This document shows positions 22,641 to 34,231 of a stretch of 39,686 nt of DNA, one piece after another. This stretch comes from Verrucomicrobiota bacterium. Lineage in GTDB: Bacteria > Verrucomicrobiota > Verrucomicrobiia > Palsa-1439. Position numbers and translations under genes: made by a program. The number at the start of each line of letters is the position of its first letter. The first letter of the stretch is position 1. The notes beneath the pieces were generated by a model. The model was given only the letters and a program-made list of their open reading frames with translations. It was not told the DNA's origin and ran no database searches. The stretch spans positions 1-39,686 of the forward strand of contig PLZV01000033.1 of the NCBI GenBank assembly GCA_003152315.1, in the 5' to 3' direction.

Positions 22641-23669
22641 ATGTTTGGCAAATTTCTAAACTATTTTTCGACCGATATTGGCATCGATTTGGGAACCGCG
22701 AACACGCTGGTGTATGTGCGTGATCGCGGTATTGTTTTGCGAGAGCCCAGCGTGGTGGCCATCCAAACAGGGACAAGCCACGTGCTGGCGGTAGGAGAAG
22801 AGGCGAAAAGGATGTTGGGTCGCACGCCAGGTAACATCCAGGCCATTCGCCCCATGAAGGACGGCGTCATCGCGGATTTCGAGATCACCGAGGCGATGCT
22901 GCGCTATTTCATCCAGAAGGTGCACAACCGCCGTTACGGCATTAAACCGCGCGTGATCGTGGCGGTGCCGAGCGGAATCACCGAGGTGGAAAAGCGCGCC
23001 GTCAAAGACAGCGCCACCCATGCCGGGGCGCGGGACGTTTATCTGATTGAAGAACCGATGGCGGCCGCCATCGGCGTTGGGCTGCCGGTGCAAGAGCCGG
23101 CGGGCAACATGATTGTGGATATCGGCGGCGGCACGACGGAAGTGGCCCTGATCAGCCTGGCGGGCATCGTGTTGAGCCGCAGTGTGCGTGTAGCAGGTGA
23201 TGAACTGGATGAGGCCATCATCCAGTACATGAAACGCGCTTACAATTTGATGATTGGCGAACGCATGGCGGAGGACATCAAGATCAAGATCGGCTCGGGC
23301 TACCCGCTCGAACAAGAGCTCACCATGGAAGTCAAAGGACGCGACCTGGTGGCGGGCTTGCCGAAAACCTTGACGGTTACCTCCGAGGAAGTGCGCGAAG
23401 CGTTGCAGGAGCCGATCTCGACCATCGTCGAGAACGTCCGCGTCACGCTCGAGCGCTGCCCTCCTGAATTGGCAGCCGACCTCGTCGACCGCGGCATCAT
23501 GCTGGCGGGCGGCGGTGCGCTGATTCGGGGCATCGACAAGCTTCTCGCCGAGGAGACGGGGCTGCCCGTTCACATCGCTGATGATCCGCTGAGCGCGGTG
23601 GCGATGGGCACGGGTGTGGTGCTCCAGGAACTCGGCTATCTCGAGAAGCTCGCCAAGAATTCATCGTAA
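22641..23669 (+). CDS. mreB: Rod-shape-determining actin homologue MreB
   Basis: This is a 342-aa MreB that polymerises under the inner membrane and guides elongasome peptidoglycan synthesis. It shows phosphate-1 [11 protein letters not shown] (about residues 12-22), connect-1 EEPMAAAIG, phosphate-2 [14 protein letters not shown] and the adenosine motif [10 protein letters not shown] near residue 290. The amphipathic N terminus MFGKFLNYF is typical of membrane-binding MreB. It is the first gene of a plus-strand operon with mreC, mreD, mrdA and rodA. A palindromic repeat lies in the 107-nt gap before mreC. Confidence 0.98.
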
Positions 23670-23707
23670 GCGCATCCCACCTGCTCCATCCGCCAGAGAA
23701 TTGGCCT

Positions 23708-23757
23708 GTTGTAGCCGCCGGCCCTAGCCGGCGCGCAGACCAGAGTCTGCGACTACA
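23708..23757. repeat. Short dispersed palindromic repeat between mreB and mreC
   Basis: It begins with TTGTAGCCGCC and ends with GACTACA. Inside are GCCGGCCCTAGCCGGC and CGCAGACCAGAGTCTGCG, two nested palindromes. It is related to the TGTAGCGGCG units elsewhere in the window. Lying within an operon, it could form a hairpin in the mRNA and adjust mreC expression relative to mreB. Confidence 0.65.
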
Positions 23758-23776
23758 GACGGGCACGGAAGTTTGA

Positions 23777-24559
23777 TTGAACCGGAAAAATTTGGTCATT
23801 ATTGGATTGCTGGTGGTCGGCTGGATCATGTTACTGGGCCAACCCAACGCTTTCTCGGGTAAGCTGCGTATGGTTTTCGTACAACTTGGCACGCCTTTCG
23901 TGAAGCTGGGAGATTATTTTCCCTTCGTCCAATCGCGTCGACTCCTCGCCAGACAAAATGAGGATTTACGCCGGGAAAACGATGCGCTCCGCCAGCAGGT
24001 GCGTGCCCTGGGTGAAACGGGAGATGAAAATCTGCGTCTGCATCAGCTTCTCAGCCTGAAAGAGCACACCCCCTTCCACACCGTCACCGCGCGCGTCACT
24101 GGTCGCGATGCGTCCAACTGGTGGGAGAGCATCCAGATCGACCGTGGCAGCAACGATGGTCTCCACATGAACATGGCCGTGTTCAACGCCGACGGCCTCA
24201 TCGGCAAGATCGTCTCCGTCACCAAAGGCGAAAGCCGCGTGCTCCTTCTGACCGATCCGAACTGCAAAGTCAGCGCCCTCCTGCAGAACACGCGCGAGCC
24301 CGGCATCGCCGCCGGCGTCAAGCGTTCGCTCCGCTTTTCCCCGCACTGCGTGATGACCTACGTGAACCGCGATGCCAAGGTCAAGAACGGTGAGCCGGTG
24401 ATTTCCTCTGGCTTTGGCGGCGTTTTCCCCAAAGGTATTCTCATCGGGACCGTGACGGGGATGCAACTCAACAAGCAAACCGGTATGTACCAGGACGTCG
24501 AGATCAAACCCGCCGCGGATTTTCGCCGGTTGGAGGAAGTGATGGTGATCACGGAATGA
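23777..24559 (+). CDS. mreC: Rod-shape-determining protein MreC
   Basis: This is a 260-aa bitopic periplasmic protein of the elongasome that binds and activates PBP2-RodA. It has one N-terminal transmembrane helix (about residues 5-24), then a coiled-coil heptad stretch (RRLLARQNEDLRRENDALRQQVRAL, about 55-80). The beta-barrel MreC domain follows (DGLIGKIVSVTKGESRVLLLTDPN... VISSGFGGVFPKGILIGTV). It starts with TTG at 23777, which is supported by a GGAAG ribosome-binding site 6 nt upstream. No ATG occurs before the helix. Its stop overlaps the mreD start by 4 nt (ATGA). Confidence 0.96.
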   Translation: MNRKNLVIIGLLVVGWIMLLGQPNAFSGKLRMVFVQLGTPFVKLGDYFPFVQSRRLLARQNEDLRRENDALRQQVRALGETGDENLRLHQLLSLKEHTPFHTVTARVTGRDASNWWESIQIDRGSNDGLHMNMAVFNADGLIGKIVSVTKGESRVLLLTDPNCKVSALLQNTREPGIAAGVKRSLRFSPHCVMTYVNRDAKVKNGEPVISSGFGGVFPKGILIGTVTGMQLNKQTGMYQDVEIKPAADFRRLEEVMVITE

Positions 24560-25023
24560 GCACGCTCATCGCCATCGTGGGAATCCTGATCGCTACGGCG
24601 CTGCAAACGCGCTTGCCGACACTATGGATGTTCGGCGGCTTGCGAATCGAATTCCTGCCGGCACTTGTGGCGTACGCGGCGCTGACAATGCCGCGCAAAC
24701 CTGCCATTGCGATTGCGCTCGCGGCGGGCTTGATGCAGGACGCGTTCTCGGCTGCGCCGTTTGGCGTGTCGGCGTTGGCCTATGGCATTTCGGCCATTCT
24801 GATGACGAGTCTGCGCGAGGTGCTGGACCGCGATCTGCCCTGGGTGCAGATGGGCGCGGGCGCGCTGACATCGATGGCGGTTGCGGTCATCACGTTCTTC
24901 GTCATTGGTCTTTCATTCGGCGTGGTTTTCAAGATGGTTCTCGTGGCGTCGATGAGCGGGATTGTCACGATGTTGGCGTTCTTCGCGTTGGATTACGCGC
25001 AGATGGTCTGGGGGAACGCATGA
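24556..25023 (+). CDS. mreD: Rod-shape-determining membrane protein MreD
   Basis: This is a 155-aa protein with five or six hydrophobic helices covering most of its length. The pattern FLPALVAYAALTMPRKPAIAIALAAGLMQDAFSAAPFG matches the MreD core (Q-D at the end of helix 3, then a loop with a conserved G). MreD works with MreC in controlling elongasome activity. The start overlaps mreC by ATGA, and the stop overlaps mrdA in the same way, so the three are translationally coupled. Confidence 0.95.
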   Translation: MSTLIAIVGILIATALQTRLPTLWMFGGLRIEFLPALVAYAALTMPRKPAIAIALAAGLMQDAFSAAPFGVSALAYGISAILMTSLREVLDRDLPWVQMGAGALTSMAVAVITFFVIGLSFGVVFKMVLVASMSGIVTMLAFFALDYAQMVWGNA

Positions 25024-26894
25024 TCATTAGCGCGCCATTTCGGGAAAACAACCCGCGCCTCCGTGCGATCGGGACGATCATCGCCGGCGGATTGTTCCTG
25101 CTCCTCGGCGCGTTGTGGCGCGTGCAGGTCATGCGCGGTCAGCACTACGACAACAAGCAGGACGCACAATCGCTGCGCCGCATCCGCATTCCCGCGGCAC
25201 GCGGAGAAATCGTCGATCGCAATGGTGTTGTCCTCGCGAACAACCGCCCGAGTTACGACATCGCGATTTACCTCGACCAAATGGGCGTGCCCAAGAAAGG
25301 CAATGTCGTCGCCATCGCCCAGGCGAATCTGGGTATACTCGGCTCGGAGCTCGGCCTTCAGAACAAACTTGCGGATCGCGACATCAAGCTCCACTACCAG
25401 AAGCGCCGTCCCCTGCCCATGCCCGTGTGGCACGATCTTCCTCCCGAACAGGTCGCGGCCTTTTCCGAACGTACCAACAATCTCCCTGGCCCGGATCTGA
25501 TCGTCATGCCCGTGCGCCAATATCCACTGGGCCCACTCGCGGCCCATTTGATCGGCTATGTCGGCAAGGCGGATGCGGACGACGACGATGACGATATCGA
25601 GAAGTTTTCCTACTACCAACCCGACAGCGTGGGCAGGCAAGGCGTCGAGAAGGCGTGCGATGAATACCTGCGCGGTTCACCGGGCGGACGCACCATCCGG
25701 GTCAATCCGGCTGGCACGATCAAGGATGACCTGGGTGAGAAACAAGCCGAGCGTGGCGGTCGGGTAACGTTGACGATCGACGTCCGACTGCAGCGAATCC
25801 TGGAAAAGGCCCTGGGCGAAGCCCCGCCAACCGCGGGCAAACAGCTCTCCGGCGCGGCTGTGCTATTGGATGCGCGCACGGGTGAAGTGCTGGCACTGGC
25901 GTCCGTGCCGAGTTTCGACCCCAACATCTTTAGTCCAGGTACGCCCGGGCAAATGATCGAGGCCGTCATGAATAATCCCGCCAGCCCGATGCTCAATCGC
26001 ACCATCGGCGCGCGGTACCCGCCCGGCTCGACGTTCAAACCGATCACCTTGCTGGCTGGGCTCGAGTCCGGCGTAATCTCGCCGCAGGACACCGTGACCT
26101 GCCCCGGGTTCTTTACGATCGGTAACCACACCTTCCGGTGTTGGAATCATAGCGGCCACGGTCGCGTCGATGCCGAAACCGCGATCAGGGAATCGTGCGA
26201 CGTGTGGTTCTACGAGAGAGGTTTGAAAACGGGCGTGGATAACATCACCAAGGTCGCCGCTGAATTTGGCCTGGGTCAACCGACGGGGTTTGACCTTGGA
26301 AGCGAAGGCCGGGGTTTGGTGCCGAGCGCCGCGTGGAAACGGACGCAGCGCGGCGAAAAATGGTGGGATGGCGATACGGTCCAGTTGTCGATTGGCCAAA
26401 GCTTCCTGCTGGTCACACCGATGCAGATGGCGTGCGTGGCCGCGACGTTCGCCAATCGCGGCACTTGTTTGCGGCCATATGTCGTGAAGCGCATCGAGTC
26501 CTCCGATGGTCAGGTCGTCCATGAGGGTCAACCGGATGTTCGCATGCATTTGAGCGCGAAACCCCAACAGATCGAGTTCGTGCGACAAGCCATGCTCGGC
26601 GCTGTCGAGAATGGCACGGCGCGGCCCGCGGCGGTAAAGGGATTGAGCGTGGCGGGCAAGACGGGCACGGCGCAATACGACACGATCGTCGACGGCAAGA
26701 CGCAACGCCTGGAGCGAGCGTGGTTTATCGGGTTCGCACCCTACGACCAGCCACAGTTCGCAATCTCCGTACTGATTGAGGCGGCCAAAGAAGGCAGCCA
26801 CACGGCGGCCGCCGTTGCCAGCAAGGTCTTCGCGCAAGCGTTTGGAAAGACCACCGAGGACTCGCGCCCCGCGGAGGTGATCTATGCCGATTAA
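25020..26894 (+). CDS. mrdA: Penicillin-binding protein 2 (class B transpeptidase)
   Basis: This is a 624-aa peptidoglycan DD-transpeptidase of the elongasome. One N-terminal helix (about 15-35) is followed by the pedestal domain with RGEIVDRNGVVLANN. The transpeptidase motifs are SxxK as STFK (337-340), a SCD motif in place of SxN (392-394), and KTGTAQ (547-552). Four Cys/His residues (361, 370, 374, 377) cluster before the SCD motif and could form a metal site like that reported in some PBP2s. An unusual acidic run of eight Asp/Glu-type residues lies in the pedestal (about 185-193). The frame stays open to 24624, but the ATG at 25020 gives the family N terminus and overlaps the mreD stop. 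Confidence 0.97.
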   Translation: MIISAPFRENNPRLRAIGTIIAGGLFLLLGALWRVQVMRGQHYDNKQDAQSLRRIRIPAARGEIVDRNGVVLANNRPSYDIAIYLDQMGVPKKGNVVAIAQANLGILGSELGLQNKLADRDIKLHYQKRRPLPMPVWHDLPPEQVAAFSERTNNLPGPDLIVMPVRQYPLGPLAAHLIGYVGKADADDDDDDIEKFSYYQPDSVGRQGVEKACDEYLRGSPGGRTIRVNPAGTIKDDLGEKQAERGGRVTLTIDVRLQRILEKALGEAPPTAGKQLSGAAVLLDARTGEVLALASVPSFDPNIFSPGTPGQMIEAVMNNPASPMLNRTIGARYPPGSTFKPITLLAGLESGVISPQDTVTCPGFFTIGNHTFRCWNHSGHGRVDAETAIRESCDVWFYERGLKTGVDNITKVAAEFGLGQPTGFDLGSEGRGLVPSAAWKRTQRGEKWWDGDTVQLSIGQSFLLVTPMQMACVAATFANRGTCLRPYVVKRIESSDGQVVHEGQPDVRMHLSAKPQQIEFVRQAMLGAVENGTARPAAVKGLSVAGKTGTAQYDTIVDGKTQRLERAWFIGFAPYDQPQFAISVLIEAAKEGSHTAAAVASKVFAQAFGKTTEDSRPAEVIYAD

Positions 26895-28014
26895 ACGATA
26901 CGTCGAGACGATCAAGCGCATGGATTGGGTGCTATTCGGCGCCATGGCGGCGCTGGCGGTGGGCAGTGTTTTCTTCATCTATAGTGCATCATATTCCGCT
27001 TCGGGTCCGGCTGCGGCGCATCACGGGAGGCTGCCCATCTACCAGATGCAGATGATGTGGTTCGGCGTCGGGCTGCTGGTTTATCTGGCCGTGGCGCTGG
27101 TGGATTACCGGCTCATTTGCCAGTGGGCAACGGTGTGGTACGTGATCGCGCTGGGGTTGCTCGCGCTGGTACTGGTGGCCGGCGTGAAAGTGTACGGCGC
27201 CCGGCGGTGGTTGGGGCTCGGGAGTTTCGGGATTCAACCGGCGGAGATTGCCAAGTTGGCGACGCTCGTGGCGATATCCTATTACCTGTTCCATCGCACG
27301 CTGGAAGCGCGCCGGCAGTTGAGCACCGTCTGGGTTGCGCTCGTCGTGGCTGGAGCGCCGCTGGTGCTCATTATGTTGGAACCGGATTTGGGTTCGGCCT
27401 TGGTTCTGCTTCCGATTTGTTTTGGTTTGCTGTTCGTGGCGGGCGCGCGCGTGAAACACCTGGCGTTGATGATCGCATTGGGGTTGGTCCTCGCGCCGTT
27501 CGCCTGGCTGCATATGAAGGACTATCAAAGGGACCGCCTCACGGTGTTTTTGCATCCGAACAAGGACCCCGGTGGCGTCGGTTGGAATCTCACCCAATCA
27601 CTCATCTCGGTCGGCTCCGGTGGGTGGTCAGGGAAAGGCTATTTGCAGGGTACACAAAACCTGTTGGGATATTTGCCGAGCACCGTGGCGCCGAACGATT
27701 TTCTCTTCAGCGTGATCGCGGAAGAGAAGGGATTCGTTGGCAGCCTCGGTGTGGTCGGGTTGTACGCGGTCATTTTGTTTTCCGGGCTACGGATCGCCGC
27801 AAACGCGCGCGACCGTTTGGGAATGCTCCTGGCCACCGGGGTCGTGGTCATGTTGTTTTTCCATATCTTCATTAACGTGGGCATGACGATCGGCCTGATG
27901 CCGGTCACGGGTCTGCCCCTGCCATTACTCAGTTACGGAGGATCGTTCGTGCTGGCCAGCATGACCGCCCTCGGGCTGTTACAAAACATCTGGATTCACA
28001 GGAGGATCTATTGA
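26884..28014 (+). CDS. rodA: SEDS peptidoglycan polymerase RodA
   Basis: This is a 376-aa polytopic SEDS glycosyltransferase that polymerises lipid II with PBP2. It has about 10 transmembrane helices. Motifs visible are ARRWLGLGSFGIQPAEIAKLA (about 115-135), LIMLEPDLGSALVLLPI with the Asp that is functionally important in RodA, the large loop GWSGKGYLQGTQNLLGYLPSTVAPNDFLFSVIAEE..., and the C-terminal LPLPLLSYGGSF. The start lies 11 nt inside mrdA and has a GGAGGT ribosome-binding site. The next gene starts at the rodA stop. Confidence 0.97.
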   Translation: MPIKRYVETIKRMDWVLFGAMAALAVGSVFFIYSASYSASGPAAAHHGRLPIYQMQMMWFGVGLLVYLAVALVDYRLICQWATVWYVIALGLLALVLVAGVKVYGARRWLGLGSFGIQPAEIAKLATLVAISYYLFHRTLEARRQLSTVWVALVVAGAPLVLIMLEPDLGSALVLLPICFGLLFVAGARVKHLALMIALGLVLAPFAWLHMKDYQRDRLTVFLHPNKDPGGVGWNLTQSLISVGSGGWSGKGYLQGTQNLLGYLPSTVAPNDFLFSVIAEEKGFVGSLGVVGLYAVILFSGLRIAANARDRLGMLLATGVVVMLFFHIFINVGMTIGLMPVTGLPLPLLSYGGSFVLASMTALGLLQNIWIHRRIY

Positions 28015-29627
28015 GCATGGACGCAATCAAACAAATATTGAAAAAGGGCGAGGAACTGTTGACCGGGCGCCGCAAGAAACGCATCTTCAAGGAAATCATC
28101 GTCAACGCCGAGGCGCTGGAGAACCGCGTCGCCGTGTTGGAAGAGGGCCAGCTCGAGGAGTTCACCATCGAGCGCACCACCGAGTCGCGGATCGTCGCCA
28201 GCGTGTTCAAGGGGAAAATCCGGAACCTTGAGCCGGGCCTGAAAGCGGCCTTCGTCGACATTGGATTCGAAAAGAACGCCTTCCTCCACTACTGGGACAT
28301 CATCCCCGAGCAACTCGACCAGCGCATCGATCTGCTCGAAACACCGGAAACACAACGTGCCCCGCAGAAACCAAAAATCTCGCAGAAGGACATCCCGCAA
28401 CTGTATCCGCCGGGCTCCGAAGTCATCGTGCAGGTCGTCAAAGGCCCCATCGGCACCAAGGGCCCGCGTATCACCACCAACATCAGCATCCCCGGCCGCT
28501 ACCTTGTCCTGATGCCGTTCAACCCGCAACGCGGCATCTCGCGCAAAATTGAGGACGACCGTGAACGCCAGCGCCTGAAAAAAATCCTGCAGCGCCTCCG
28601 CATTCCCGAGGGCATGGGCGTCATCATCCGCACCGTGGGCGAAAACCAGAAGAAGCGCTACTTCATCCGCGACCTCGAATTGCTGCTGCAGACGTGGAAG
28701 TCGGTTGAGGAAAAAATCAAGACACAGTCGGCGCCGTATTGCGTTTTCCAGGAACCCGACCTCGTCGAGCGCACCGTGCGCGATTTCCTCACCGAGGAAG
28801 TGGATCGCATCGTGGTGGACAACGAGCACGCCTACGAGCGTATCCGCAACATGATCGGGCAGATCAGTCGGCGATCCCGCGGCAAGGTCCGGCTCTACAA
28901 CGAACCCACGCCAATCTTCAGCCGGTTCAACGTCGAGAAACAAATCGAAAACGCGTTCCGCCGCCAGGTCTGGCTCAAATCGGGCGGCTACATCTGCATC
29001 GATGAAACGGAAGCGCTCGTGGCCGTCGACGTCAACACAGGCCGCCATAAATCGCAAAAGGACCTGGACACGACGATCCTGCAAACCAATCTCGAAGCCG
29101 CGGAGGAAATCTGCCGCCAGCTTCGCCTCCGCAACATCGGCGGCCTCATCGTCATCGACTTCATCGACATGCGCCACCGCAACGACCAGCAGAAGGTCAC
29201 GCAAAAGGTGCGCGAAGGCGTCCGTCGCGATAAGGCCAAAACCCGCATCCTCAACATCTCGCAGCTCGGTCTCATGGAGATGACCCGCCAGCGTCACAGC
29301 GAGAGCATGGCCAGCGCGGTGTACGAGGACTGCCCCTACTGCAAAGGCAAAGGCATGGTCAAAAGCGCGTTGTCGATGTCGGTGGAAATCCAGCGAAAAG
29401 TCTCCGAACTGCTCCGCAAGCTGCGCGAGCAGGGCAAACACGAGCAACCGCAACTCCGCATCTTCGTTCATCCCGAGGTGCTCAACCGTCTCCGCACCGA
29501 GGACGAAAGGGTGCTCATCGAACTGGAGAAGAAGCTCAGCGGCAAACTCAGCTTCCGGGCCGACCCGACGTTCCATTTCGAGCAGTTCAAAATCGCCGAC
29601 GCCATCAGCGGCCAAGAACTCGCGTGA
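28011..29627 (+). CDS. rng: Rne/Rng family ribonuclease (RNase E/G)
   Basis: This is a 538-aa endoribonuclease that cuts single-stranded AU-rich RNA. It contains the S1-like region (ESRIVASVFKGKIRNLEPGLKAAFVDIGFEKNAFLH), which carries an inserted charged stretch (about 100-130). The catalytic DNase-I-like domain has Asp in AVDVNTGRH (near 339) and IVIDFIDM (near 381). The zinc-link CPYCKGKG lies near 440. There is no long degradosome scaffold tail, so it is closer to RNase G in size. It starts with TTG at 28011, supported by a GGAGG site 5 nt upstream. The ATG two codons later is too far from that site. Its first bases overlap the rodA stop and its end overlaps the next gene (ATGA/GTGA type). 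Confidence 0.95.
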   Translation: MSMDAIKQILKKGEELLTGRRKKRIFKEIIVNAEALENRVAVLEEGQLEEFTIERTTESRIVASVFKGKIRNLEPGLKAAFVDIGFEKNAFLHYWDIIPEQLDQRIDLLETPETQRAPQKPKISQKDIPQLYPPGSEVIVQVVKGPIGTKGPRITTNISIPGRYLVLMPFNPQRGISRKIEDDRERQRLKKILQRLRIPEGMGVIIRTVGENQKKRYFIRDLELLLQTWKSVEEKIKTQSAPYCVFQEPDLVERTVRDFLTEEVDRIVVDNEHAYERIRNMIGQISRRSRGKVRLYNEPTPIFSRFNVEKQIENAFRRQVWLKSGGYICIDETEALVAVDVNTGRHKSQKDLDTTILQTNLEAAEEICRQLRLRNIGGLIVIDFIDMRHRNDQQKVTQKVREGVRRDKAKTRILNISQLGLMEMTRQRHSESMASAVYEDCPYCKGKGMVKSALSMSVEIQRKVSELLRKLREQGKHEQPQLRIFVHPEVLNRLRTEDERVLIELEKKLSGKLSFRADPTFHFEQFKIADAISGQELA

Positions 29628-30862
29628 AGCCCTTGCGGAATCGTGCGGTAGGGGCATGGCTGGCCGTGCCTCTACTGTCATGTGCGCTCCTCTTGACGGC
29701 CCAGGCACTGGCCGCCGACGAGCCGCGCGTCCTCACGCCCACGCCGTCTTCCTTCGAGACGCTGTCGCGTTTCACGCAGGTGTTGGAGGTGCTGCAGAAA
29801 ACCTACGCCCTGCCCTCGCGCATCAACACCGCCGGGCATACCACCGCGGCCCTCCGCGGATTCGTCCGCTCCATCGATCCCGAAGCGGATTTGCTCACGC
29901 CCGAGGAGGCTGCGGTCACGAACGAACTCGCCTACACCGCTGCCGCCATCGGACTCAGTTTCGCCATCTGCGACGATTTCCCCACGGTCATCTCGCCGCG
30001 TGACGGCAGTCCGGCGGAAAATGGCGGCCTGCTCGCCGGCGAGCAACTCATCGCCGTCAGCGATGTCCTCACGCCCCATGCGCGGCGCATCGAAGTGGAC
30101 CGCCTCCTCGGTGGTCCGCGGGATTTCCCCGTGAACCTGCGCGTTCTCGATCCGCGTACCGGGGCCGTCCGCGACCTGCACTTGCATCGAACCGTACCGG
30201 GTCCCACCCCCCGGACCGCCCTGCGTTACCTCGACAAAGGCGTCGCCTACTATCGCATTTCTCAATTCACTCAGGACGCTGTCGAGAACCTCCGCGCGGC
30301 CATGATCCTCGCCAAAAGCGCAGGCGCATCGGGCATCATTCTCGACCTCCGTAACAATGCCGGTGGCGCGTTTGAAGCCGCACAGGTGGCCGCGTCGTTC
30401 TTCGTGGTGAAAGGCACCGAGATCGTCGCGCTGGAGTATGGAAGTCCGGGACTGCACACCACCTTCGTCAGTGACGAAAGTATCAAGGTCACCACGCCGC
30501 TGGTCCTGCTCGTCAACGGCGGCACCGCCGCCGAGGCGGAGATTTTTGCCGCGGCGCTGCAGGACAACAAACGCGCCCGCATCGTCGGCACCCAGAGCTT
30601 TGGTCGCGGGTTCCTCACCGCGTCCACCCGCTTGTCGGACGGCTCCGTGTTGGTCATGCCCACAGCCTACTACATGCGACCCTCGAAACAGGTTCTTCAA
30701 GGTAACGGCCTGATCCCGGATGTAGTCGTCGCCTTGCCACGCGAGACCGAACGCTCCCTCGCCCGCTCCGGCTTCGGGACCTTTGACTGGAAGAACGACC
30801 GCCGCGAAGTCCTCGCCACCGACCTCCCCCTCGCCAAAGCCGTGTCCCTGCTGGCCAAGTGA
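29624..30862 (+). CDS. S41-family periplasmic pseudoprotease (Ser-Lys dyad lost)
   Basis: This is a 412-aa protein of the C-terminal processing peptidase (CtpA/Prc) fold. It has a signal peptide (about 1-30), a PDZ-like domain (about 110-195) and an S41 core with LDLRNNAGGAFEAAQVAASFF near 240-260. In active members the catalytic Ser lies in a (S/T)ASASE motif and the Lys in a TFGK motif 25 residues later. Here the equivalents are TAAEAE and SFGR, so Ser is Ala303 and Lys is Arg328, with the same 25-residue spacing. Both catalytic residues are missing while the fold's glycines and the VLVNGGTA loop are kept. It probably binds peptides without cutting them. It is the last gene of the shape-rng operon, overlapping rng by 4 nt. 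Confidence 0.85.
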   Translation: MKPLRNRAVGAWLAVPLLSCALLLTAQALAADEPRVLTPTPSSFETLSRFTQVLEVLQKTYALPSRINTAGHTTAALRGFVRSIDPEADLLTPEEAAVTNELAYTAAAIGLSFAICDDFPTVISPRDGSPAENGGLLAGEQLIAVSDVLTPHARRIEVDRLLGGPRDFPVNLRVLDPRTGAVRDLHLHRTVPGPTPRTALRYLDKGVAYYRISQFTQDAVENLRAAMILAKSAGASGIILDLRNNAGGAFEAAQVAASFFVVKGTEIVALEYGSPGLHTTFVSDESIKVTTPLVLLVNGGTAAEAEIFAAALQDNKRARIVGTQSFGRGFLTASTRLSDGSVLVMPTAYYMRPSKQVLQGNGLIPDVVVALPRETERSLARSGFGTFDWKNDRREVLATDLPLAKAVSLLAK

Positions 30863-31551
30863 TTTGGGATCCAAAAGGTTCGGATTTGTAGGGCACGCGC
30901 TCCGCTTGCCATCAAAATCCGAACATCGCTCCAGTTGGGTTCGTTTTCCGCAAAAGTAGCGCAGCACCCCCTTAAAACCCCTCTCCGGTGGGTTCGTTTT
31001 CCAAAATGAACCCACCGATCTCCCTCGTGTATTTCTTTTCTAACTCATGCACTCATAGCCAATTACAACAAAAACTCCGCCAAAAAACGGTGGGTTCGTT
31101 TCGCAGAAACGTATATAGGGCCCGAGCTGCGCACAGCAGCGAGTCGCGCCATAGCACAAAGTGCGACGGCGGACCCCATTGCCTAGCCTTCGTTTTGTCC
31201 GCCATAGCTCGAAGAGCGACGGCGGAAGCGTCCTCGCGAAGTAGGCTTCCTCCCGTGGGAGCGATATGCTATCGGGACTCCTCCCGGCGGATCGCCTGCG
31301 AATCACTTCGTCAAATCCCAACCCCCGCATTCCTAACACATTCATATAACGCCCCTTAACTGGGGGATTCGTTTCGCAGAATCGCGGTGCGACGGCGGAA
31401 GCGTCCTCGCAAAGGCGCAAGCTGTAGCGAAGGAAGCCTGTCACAAAACTCATACCCAGGATCATACCATTATCGGAATACGATGTCCAGAAGAAATTAG
31501 TTCTCCATTCAAGGAGCTTCTCTACCGAGGCTTGTAATCTCCGAACTGCGC
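30863..31551. other. Long intergenic repeat island
   Basis: About 690 nt without a credible gene. Most of it is the second composite repeat copy (listed separately). Translated frames in it read CETNPP / KTNPP peptides, a known sign of spurious frames over dispersed repeats in planctomycete-verrucomicrobial genomes. Confidence 0.6.
30935..31493 (-). repeat. Composite dispersed repeat, copy 2 (inverted relative to copy 1)
   Basis: This is the reverse complement of the block series described at 17632-18120. It contains GGGTTCGTTTTCC units at about 30935 and 30990, then ACGGTGGGTTCGTTTCGCAG (31089-31108), CGCCATAGCTCGAAGAGCGA (about 31202), TCCTCGCGAAGTAGGC and TCGGAATACGATGTCCAGAA (31473-31492). 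The two copies differ in many bases and in spacer lengths, so this is an old family and not a recent duplication. The pair lies 13 kb apart in opposite orientation. Confidence 0.7.
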
Positions 31552-32313
31552 TTACTGCGAGATTGACTGTTTCAGAAGCTTCTCAAGAACCAGTAGGTTC
31601 TCTTCGTAGCCGACTGCTATGATAAGTCTTCGAGATCCCAGATACTTTAGGACATTCGGACCCGGAGAAATGAGATACTCGTGTCCGTCAGACAGGTGGA
31701 TCGGTTTGACCTTTCCATATACCGACTGGAGCTTCAGGACCGGCTCGCCATGAATCTCGGGTCGGACTGTATAGATTCGCACCTCGATTTGAGGATACCC
31801 CAGCACCACGGCACCCCTCCACGTGCTGTAAGGGAAAGAATACAAGTTAGCAAGCATTTGTAACGCCTCGCTCGCGGTTTGTCCGCGTTCATTCATGGAC
31901 ACATGTCGATTTGTGTCGATTCCGCTCATCAAGTCGGGTTCAAGGCGTTTCGCGTCCATCGCGCTTGCCTCAAGACGGATCTCGTCGTCGGTATGTGGCG
32001 GCATTGCCAGTTGTGGGCGACTGACATTCACAATCACAGTCGTGTTGGTTCCGGCGGCAATGCCACGTTCTCCGTCCAATTTCTGGACGTACTCAATTGC
32101 TTGGAGTACGGGCAGATTCTCGAATTTGATTTCCGGAATCTGCATCTGCATGTACCGTACTGCAAATGCCGGCAGTTCTGACGGCGGCATGTTTGCCGGT
32201 GGAATGTAGACGCCTTTTGGTGGAAAGGCACTTTCCGGGATGAGATAAGCTTCTTCCCAGGATTTTCTAATCGGCGGCCCCTTACCAAAGCCGTTTGTTG
32301 TGCAGGTTCCCAT
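31552..32313 (-). CDS. Secretin/STN-like hypothetical protein
   Basis: This is a protein of about 253 aa. It contains a segment resembling an STN/secretin-N short domain (IPEIKFENLPVLQAIEYVQKLDG, about residues 58-80 of this start), followed by beta-rich sequence (TTVIVNVSRPQ; VVLGYPQIEVRIYTV). It ends with a helical tail. No signal peptide or membrane helix follows the chosen ATG (32313). The longer frame to 32433 overlaps the upstream gene by 150 nt and adds a poor N terminus. It overlaps the upstream SLBB-like gene by about 30 nt, so the two may be co-translated. A role in export or in a polysaccharide channel is possible, but it is not recognised as a known family. Confidence 0.5.
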   Translation of the reverse strand: MGTCTTNGFGKGPPIRKSWEEAYLIPESAFPPKGVYIPPANMPPSELPAFAVRYMQMQIPEIKFENLPVLQAIEYVQKLDGERGIAAGTNTTVIVNVSRPQLAMPPHTDDEIRLEASAMDAKRLEPDLMSGIDTNRHVSMNERGQTASEALQMLANLYSFPYSTWRGAVVLGYPQIEVRIYTVRPEIHGEPVLKLQSVYGKVKPIHLSDGHEYLISPGPNVLKYLGSRRLIIAVGYEENLLVLEKLLKQSISQ

Positions 32314-32746
32314 GCCTAGCTGTAACCAAATCTCCTTCCTGTAGAAGAAATTTGCATTCGGATATATTCGATTCCGAATTGGTCCAACTGACAGAAAAAC
32401 AGTAGACCGCACCAATCGGATTTGGATCGTCACTGGAAGGCCGCATGACGTTGATTGTGTGAACGTCCCAATGGAGCTTCATCCGTTCGTCGCTAACCAG
32501 TCCCCCAGCCGCCGCGATGAGGTCGGCCACGGTCATGCCCTGCTGGAAAGGATACGCACCCGGCGCTTTGACCCAAGGCCAAACATAGACGGCATGAACG
32601 TAGTTCGTTTTGTCACCCGCAGTGGCAGAATCGATCAGGTCTGAATAGGGGGCAGGCGTCTGCATGGCCCACGATCGGCAGAGGCAAGGGAGAATCACCA
32701 ACAATAGAATCAGCCAGCGCACGATTAATCCTGATAGTCGCGCCAT
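32282..32746 (-). CDS. Exported SLBB/Wza-like small protein
   Basis: This is a protein of about 154 aa. It has a hydrophobic signal (about residues 1-24, LIVRWLILLLVILPCLC) and a domain with YVWPWVKAPGAYPFQQGMTVADLIAAAGGLVSDER. That pattern is the SLBB beta-grasp of polysaccharide export proteins (a V-x-x-P-G-x-Y-x-x-x-x-G-M-T-V-x-D-x-I-x-x-A-G-G pattern). Unlike full Wza proteins it has only one such unit and no PES/Poly_export domain, so it is either a fragment or a single-domain member. The ATG at 32746 was chosen because it precedes the signal directly. Longer starts exist at 32803 and 32815. It is divergent from the TPR gene. Confidence 0.55.
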   Translation of the reverse strand: MARLSGLIVRWLILLLVILPCLCRSWAMQTPAPYSDLIDSATAGDKTNYVHAVYVWPWVKAPGAYPFQQGMTVADLIAAAGGLVSDERMKLHWDVHTINVMRPSSDDPNPIGAVYCFSVSWTNSESNISECKFLLQEGDLVTARHGNLHNKRLW

Positions 32747-32859
32747 GCGGCTATTCTGGCAACTTCGGAACGCGCCATCAATCACATAGTCTAATGATCG
32801 CATTTGTTCCCGCACAATTCCTGGCGAAAAACATTACCCCACCTGCCCCGTGAACACAG

Positions 32860-32896: not shown

Positions 32897-34231
32897 ATGT
32901 CCGCCATGAATCTCCGTTTGCGAATCGCCACGGTGCTGGCGCTGGTGCTCATGGCTTTCCCAGCGCACGCCCAAATCGCCACCCTGAAAAAACTCACCGC
33001 GCAAGCCAACGACCTTTACCGACAGGCGAAGTATGCCGACGCCGTCCGCGTCGGGCAGGACGCGCTGAAGATCGCCGAGAAGACGTTTGGCCCTTCGCAC
33101 CGCGAAGTGGCCACCGCAATGAGCAACCTCGCGGAGTACCACCGGGCGCAGGGTGATTACCCGGAAGCCGAAACGTTGTTGAAACAGGCGCTGGCCATGG
33201 ACCAGCGGTTGCTGGGCTACGACCATCAGGACGTCGCCGTCGACCTCAACAACCTCGCCCTGCTCTCCGACAACCTGCGCCGCTATGCCGACGCGGAACA
33301 ACTTTACAAGCAGGCGCTCACCATCGACGAGAAGGCCCTCGGCACGAATCACCTCGGCGTGGCGACCGACCTGAACAACCTCGCCGGAGTGTACCGTGCG
33401 GAAGGCAAACTCACCGAAGCCGAGCCGCTGTACCAGCGCGCGCTCGCGATTTGCGAGCAGTCGCCCGTCCAAAATAGTAGTGCCACCGCCACGACGCTCA
33501 ACAATCTCGGCGCGCTGGCCGCCGCCCAGGGCAAGAACGCCGAGGCCGAAAAGTTGCTGACGCGGGCGTTGGACATCTGGCGCAAGACCGTGCGGCCGGA
33601 TCATCCGAGCCTCGCGGCAACCTGGCGCGCGCTCGGTTCCGTGCAGACTTCCTTGCGCGAGTATGCGAAAGCGGAGGCCTCCTACAAGGAAGCGCTCGCC
33701 ATCAGCGAGAAAAGCAGCGGTAAGAAAAATCCGCAATTGGCCAAGGACCTCAGCAACTTCGGTCTCGTGCTTTATCTCGAAAAGAAATACGCCGCCGCGG
33801 AACCGCCGCTCAAACGCGCGCTCGAACGCGACGAGGCGAATTACGGCAAGAAACACCTCACCGTTGCCTCCAGCCTCAACAACCTGGCGGAAGTCTACCG
33901 CAGCCAGGGCAAATTCACGCTGGCCGAGCCGCTCTACCGGCGGGCGCTGCTGATCGATGAGGAACTTCTCGGTCCCGACCACCTCGACGTGGGAACCGAC
34001 CTCAACAATCTCGGCGCGCTGTACTTTTCCGAGGGCCGTGCCGCCGATGCGCTGCCCTTGTTGAAACGGGGGCTCGCCATCAAGGAAGCCGCTCTGGGTG
34101 CCAACAGCCCCCAATTGCTGCAGATTATCGACAATTACACCGTCGTCCTCCACGCGCTGGGCCGGGCCTCGGAAGCCGCGCCACTGGAAGCGCGCGCCAG
34201 GGCGCTTCGTGCGTGGACTGTCACACCATGA
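32897..34231 (+). CDS. Exported TPR (kinesin-light-chain-like) repeat protein
   Basis: This is a 444-aa exported protein with a signal peptide (about 1-25, ending AFPAHA) and about nine 42-residue TPR units of the kinesin-light-chain type. Each has the pattern LNNLAxLYxxxGxxxEAExLxxxALxIxExxLGxxHxxVA. No enzymatic domain is present. Such proteins act as periplasmic scaffolds, with unknown partner here. The frame opens at 32804, but the ATG at 32897 is followed directly by the signal sequence. Its stop overlaps the larB start by ATGA, so it is translationally coupled with the lar gene. That is unusual for larB and may be an assembly of unrelated genes. Confidence 0.8.
   Translation: MSAMNLRLRIATVLALVLMAFPAHAQIATLKKLTAQANDLYRQAKYADAVRVGQDALKIAEKTFGPSHREVATAMSNLAEYHRAQGDYPEAETLLKQALAMDQRLLGYDHQDVAVDLNNLALLSDNLRRYADAEQLYKQALTIDEKALGTNHLGVATDLNNLAGVYRAEGKLTEAEPLYQRALAICEQSPVQNSSATATTLNNLGALAAAQGKNAEAEKLLTRALDIWRKTVRPDHPSLAATWRALGSVQTSLREYAKAEASYKEALAISEKSSGKKNPQLAKDLSNFGLVLYLEKKYAAAEPPLKRALERDEANYGKKHLTVASSLNNLAEVYRSQGKFTLAEPLYRRALLIDEELLGPDHLDVGTDLNNLGALYFSEGRAADALPLLKRGLAIKEAALGANSPQLLQIIDNYTVVLHALGRASEAAPLEARARALRAWTVTP

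Follow-up and report, generated by a model that had tools for sequence, protein, structure and literature searches.

The locus and its genes

The protein described here is encoded within a window (the whole stretch of DNA analysed, 39,686 nucleotides) by an intact open reading frame of 412 aa, at the position where the earlier note had placed an S41 protein. Its assignment to the S41 family is supported by Pfam (Peptidase_S41, PF03572, residues 207-369, E=1.2e-35), and it is referred to below as S41x. Translation starts at a GTG codon that shares four bases (GTGA) with the stop of the preceding gene, rng. The features of the locus are as follows:

22641..28014, + strand: mreB-mreC-mreD-mrdA(PBP2)-rodA gene string (Pfam)
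28011..29627, + strand: rng (RNase G), the invariant upstream neighbour of S41x, with a 4-base overlap (Pfam, locus comparison)
29624..30862, + strand: S41x, a probably exported S41/PDZ pseudoprotease, 412 aa (ORF, Pfam Peptidase_S41, AlphaFold model)
29624..29716, + strand: probable Sec signal peptide of S41x, ending ...AQALA-A (sequence inspection; the N-terminus varies among orthologues)
29882..29887, + strand: Glu87-Ala88, where the DPHS motif has His-Ser (motif here DPEA; alignment)
29987..30145, + strand: PDZ domain, residues 122-174 by Pfam (PDZ_6; fold match 6bxg)
30110..30112, + strand: Gly163 in place of the substrate-sensing Arg (HpCtpA R162, BsCtpB R168; alignment)
30242..30730, + strand: S41 core domain, residues 207-369 (Pfam)
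30521..30541, + strand: GTAAEAE block, with Ala303 (30530-30532) at the catalytic Ser position (alignment, invariant run)
30605..30607, + strand: Arg328 at the catalytic Lys position (alignment)
30617..30619, + strand: Thr332 at the conserved catalytic Gln position (alignment)
30856..32835, no strand assigned: interval of about 2 kb that separates S41x from the TPR gene and is missing from G001 and G002
32897..34231, + strand: kinesin-light-chain-type TPR protein, probably exported, the next gene in the genus (Pfam, locus comparison)

The PDZ_6 match (4.7e-06, 26.7 bits) lies slightly below the 27-bit cut-off of Pfam, and the score of S41x against the NCBIfam prc model (TIGR00225; 161.1 bits) is below the curated cut-off of 218.6. 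The PDZ domain and the S41 fold are retained, as had been noted from the sequence, and the signal peptide, recognised by inspection, is a probable one.

Loss of the catalytic and substrate-sensing residues

The residues of S41x were compared with those of 46 aligned CtpA-type relatives from many phyla. The catalytic Ser and Lys, which are found in 46/46 of the relatives, are replaced by Ala303 and Arg328; since both are invariant in that set, the loss of the dyad and the 25-residue spacing are real, in agreement with the earlier note. The catalytic Gln (also 46/46) is Thr332 in S41x, and the column reads T, N, A, I, and W among the five intact S41x copies. Further upstream, Glu87 takes the place of the DPHS-motif His (38/46; for the role of His84 in PaCtpA, see PMC11021448), and Ala88 that of the adjoining Ser (46/46). 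Substrate sensing is affected as well: the sensing Arg (46/46) is Gly163 (G, G, G, T, and D across the five copies) and the hinge Phe (45/46) is Ala106. In HpCtpA, this Arg and Phe contact the C-terminus of the substrate, and the R162 and F105R mutants have lost their activity entirely or largely (PMC12749690). None of the five intact S41x orthologues has kept the catalytic Ser, Lys, or Gln or the switch Arg or Phe. As the activity of PaCtpA is abolished by S302A or K327A alone (PMC11021448), S41x is presumably devoid of proteolytic activity. Because every known cutting residue is replaced, it most likely regulates or scaffolds instead of cutting.

The longest invariant run across the five intact copies is the GTAAEAE block in the region of the former nucleophile (permutation p 0.007), a region that is also conserved among active enzymes. 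Ala303 is found in 6/6 S41x homologues and Arg328 in 5/6. At the position of Glu304, the active relatives have Ala or Gly (46/46). Glu304 and Arg328 co-occur in five S41x copies and are both changed in the sixth (G004; Ala and Val, respectively), which is suggestive of a salt bridge in place of the dyad, on the strength of one event only.

Orthologues, distribution, and selection

S41x was found in 6 of the 11 sampled genomes of its family, the sole family of the window's order in the sample. The carriers (G000, the genome of the window, and G001, G002, G004, G006, and G008) belong to four genera, and the identities are 83-84% for G002, 65-66% for G001, about 41% for G006, and about 36% for G008. 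Both Ser and Lys are gone in 6/6 homologues over this whole range, which rules out a recent loss or a sequencing error in the window's genome. No close homologue following rng was found with an intact Ser-Lys pair, and no active S41x orthologue in the family genomes; the other strong CtpA-like match there is a separate, active CtpA. The loss of the dyad is, judged by these alignments, old and fixed.

When 384 genomes of the class were searched with a profile, the intact S41x proteins (n=5) scored 570-734 bits and nothing else exceeded 252 bits; the S41x of G004, split by its frameshift, reached 230 bits with its second half. With no close homologue in the 373 other genomes of the class (the class draw being itself a sample), this gap indicates that close relatives of S41x are confined to the family in this sample. 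Querying genome contigs with the single protein gave no match; with an alignment as query, one named orthologue was obtained (OMJI01000224.1, 'Verrucomicrobia bacterium isolate AM_0936'), which is likely the same as the G006 copy. In the S41 tree, S41x forms one clade on a long branch, whose position relative to ctpA is not fixed by the tree. As to a single gain versus losses, the AU test gave p 0.38 for one clade of carriers. S41x can be described as a predicted pseudoenzyme that is restricted to one lineage.

The reading frame is intact in 5/6 homologues. In the exception, G004 (a genome that is 75% complete), the frame is broken at a run of ten C (L056, around 2080-2100), possibly by decay, phase variation, or an assembly error; decay in relatives, which would speak against a conserved protein, was therefore encountered at most once. 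Within the genus, dN/dS of S41x is 0.13-0.25, depending on the pair and the method, compared with 0.06-0.09 for active ctpA and 0.01-0.04 for rng, and dN is 2-3x that of ctpA. The between-genus values (0.27-0.48) were set aside as dS is saturated. Together with the intact frames, the within-genus values rule out a pseudogene in the genus. The initial description as a conserved pseudoprotease is borne out by the purifying selection in the genus, the five intact frames, and the missing dyad in every homologue between rng and larB.

Gene neighbourhood

The gene string upstream of S41x codes for MreB, MreC, MreD, a PBP2-type transpeptidase, RodA, and RNase G, as the earlier note had read it. S41x, which it placed at the end of the shape operon, does not end the conserved gene string, larB being the next gene in relatives. 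S41x lies directly downstream of rng in 6/6 carriers, and the complete mreB-to-rng string was seen in G000, G001, G002, and G006. Its immediate neighbours are rng and either larB or the TPR gene, none of which is a shape gene. In four family members (G003, G005, G007, and G009), larB comes after rng without an S41x at this locus; in G010, rng was not found. Since these relatives have the same rng-larB arrangement, S41x is dispensable there, and its link with the shape genes is positional. The proposed tethering of the elongasome consequently loses its footing. The small ORFs in the rng-larB gap of G003 (L054) and G004 (L056) and in the larB-larC gap of G007 (L053) differ by genus, marking an apparent site of gene gain and loss.

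A partnership of S41x with the TPR protein, resembling CtpA-LbcA or Prc-NlpI, was considered and rejected: the TPR gene follows S41x only in one genus (g1) and lies 2 kb off in the window. By eye, a shared promoter-like stretch (TTGCGG ... TAGCAT) belonging to this gene itself was made out, and a sequence comparison of its product with the PDB lists kinesin light chains as relatives but neither LbcA nor NlpI. The interval in between (30856-32835) holds minus-strand genes (including an SLBB protein, 32282-32815) and repeats; G001 and G002 have roughly 50-150 bases there. An interspersed palindrome built on GGTGGGTTCGTTTT is located in the window at 30986-31017 and found genome-wide. The genome has 93 copies of this 14-mer and none of the reversed control; most of the copies form inverted pairs with a spacing of 2 bases. 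Directly 3' of the S41x stop lies an imperfect 22-nt inverted repeat (30878-30924, GTTCGGATTTGTAGGGCACGCG / CGCTTGCCATCAAAATCCGAAC).

Predicted structure and comparison with known S41 proteins

The AlphaFold model of S41x (pLDDT 89.1, pTM 0.83) was obtained from an input alignment of 48 sequences, nearly all of them active CtpAs, and its top match in Foldseek is the CtpA of P. aeruginosa. Residues 45-412 align with HpCtpA (9jr1) at Z 38.7 and rmsd 2.2 over 343 aligned residues (VIA-align). The fit to the resting CtpB(S309A) (4c2e) is similarly close (Z 37.5, rmsd 2.0, 355 aligned), and the fit to active-state CtpB (4c2c) is poorer (Z 25.2, rmsd 5.8, 350 aligned), a difference that may reflect a bias of AlphaFold towards resting forms. 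The PDZ domain superposes on a CTP PDZ with bound peptide (6bxg) at Z 15.7 and rmsd 1.8 (91 aligned). Both helices from which the CtpA ring is built, at the N- and the C-terminus, fall within the aligned part.

S41x therefore shares with the CtpA-type proteases (PaCtpA, 7rpq/8sxe; HpCtpA, 9jr1; BsCtpB, 4c2e) the N-helix, cap, PDZ, S41 core, and C-helix (full-length Z 37-39), but differs from them by the lack of the Ser, Lys, Gln, DPHS His, substrate-sensing Arg, and Phe and by a score under the prc cut-off. All six carrier genomes also encode an active CtpA with the GSAS..E and TFGKG motifs. The one in the genome of the window (G000:C36:37587-38729) has the S41A architecture in common with S41x at about 31% identity, whereas it has GSASGSE and TFGKG, scores 342 bits against prc, above the cut-off, and evolves 2-3x slower.

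Degenerate S41 copies were also found elsewhere in the class, so that the phenomenon is wider than the rng locus. The same genome has a second, probably exported S41 core without the catalytic Ser (G000:C53:55406-56014, L003), for which Pfam finds S41 only (2.2e-27). Unlike S41x, it has no PDZ that could be found, carries the motif TRGSAE...TAGSA, lies away from the rng locus, and occurs in many families of the class. A sample of twenty such PDZ-less loci (L172-L191) was taken from other genomes in the class; in the 17 that could be aligned, Ser is never at the nucleophile position (0/17), which is usually Gly, and Lys is kept only in L180. Among other CtpA-like second copies, Lys alone is lost (Asn, Thr) in L192 (G026:C43) and L194 (G190:C41), and both catalytic residues in L195 (G013:C11) and L197 (G052:C28). 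Going by the aligned motifs, catalytic loss in extra S41 copies is recurrent across the class. No description of a dead CtpA-type protein in bacteria was found in the open-access literature searched.

Possible function of S41x

We tentatively favour, with a probability of roughly 0.35, that S41x is a CTP subunit held permanently in a resting, non-cutting state, or a decoy, in the CtpA pathway controlling wall-hydrolase turnover. S41x is an old, maintained paralogue of the periplasmic CtpA that has presumably lost proteolysis. Its predicted structure has kept the CTP fold together with the two terminal helices (N and C) through which known CtpA rings dimerise and trimerise, and its C-terminal region is conserved as much as the core, or more. 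With these parts kept, S41x may enter the rings of the cell's own active CtpA or compete with it, and the turnover of peptidoglycan hydrolases by CtpA would be lowered or localised near the elongation machinery. The contact with CtpA, the effect on the hydrolases, and the link to elongation are what we infer. This explanation is preferred since S41x retains what is needed to form a ring but neither catalysis nor substrate sensing, and since known CtpAs rest one subunit per dimer and control wall hydrolases. In HpCtpA, one subunit per N-dimer is active and the other resting (PMC12749690); the inactive PaCtpA S302A, with LbcA, co-purifies wall hydrolases (PMC6050968); and wall hydrolases needed for growth are controlled by CtpA-type proteases (PMC11021448). 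On the other hand, S41x is only about 31% identical to the CtpA of its own genome, is missing from the rng-larB relatives, and has an N-helix that is only 30-43% identical between genera. That S41x is a dedicated pseudo-subunit of the CtpA ring, which co-assembles with active CtpA and sets wall-hydrolase turnover from within the shape operon, is unlikely.

A substrate trap or scaffold, whose PDZ and protease groove would bind the C-terminal peptides of envelope or elongasome proteins uncut and thereby tether or protect them, is conceivable but doubtful. The PDZ fold and the core with the groove are kept, S41x always adjoins rng in the mre string, and a Ser-to-Ala CtpA works as a trap (PMC6050968). 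However, the two residues that hold the substrate C-terminus in HpCtpA (PMC12749690) are gone in 5/5 intact copies, and S41x is absent from relatives at the same locus. Furthermore, in G000 and G001, the closest pair that could be tested, no folded domain is less conserved than the PDZ, with 57% identity versus 72% for the core plus C-terminus (Fisher p=0.015). Other S41x pairs point in the same direction and are individually non-significant. The same comparison for the active paralogue gave 92% versus 86%, the PDZ being its most conserved domain. The loss of the sensing Arg and Phe and the low conservation of the PDZ thus disfavour ordinary recognition of C-terminal peptides, which the earlier note had ascribed to the protein.

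It is improbable that S41x is weakly constrained, heading for loss, and kept for now by translational coupling to rng. Such slow decay would account for a dN above that of ctpA, for the frameshift and the Val at the Lys position in G004, and for the absence of the gene in four relatives; it fits poorly with the within-genus dN/dS, the intact frames of five genomes with identities as low as 36%, and the 7-residue invariant block. Quite improbable, too, is that the pocket now serves a small or lipid-like ligand in the manner of IRBP/RBP3. That protein is a descendant of bacterial S41 proteases in which the catalytic residues are lost and which is a carrier of retinoids and fatty acids (PMC11750400). 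The modules of IRBP match S41x by profile and fold, and the block at the former active site is the most conserved stretch of S41x, but this block is conserved in active enzymes, too. Besides, S41x retains a PDZ, whereas IRBP is a vertebrate, multi-module protein that S41x matches in the S41 part only. A hydrolase kept active by a rebuilt site (Arg328 together with Glu304 or Glu306, for instance) is highly implausible, for although the joint presence and loss of Glu304 and Arg328 would suit a functional pair as well as a structural salt bridge, position 303 holds no nucleophile, single substitutions of the dyad abolish PaCtpA, and the Gln and His are gone too.

Dead S41 proteins have a precedent in IRBP, and S41x is a well-conserved pseudoenzyme of one verrucomicrobial family. 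In animals, the iRhoms are pseudoproteases that control a protease family. If S41x tunes CtpA, bacteria would likewise use pseudoproteases, in this case on a protease family that governs cell-wall growth.
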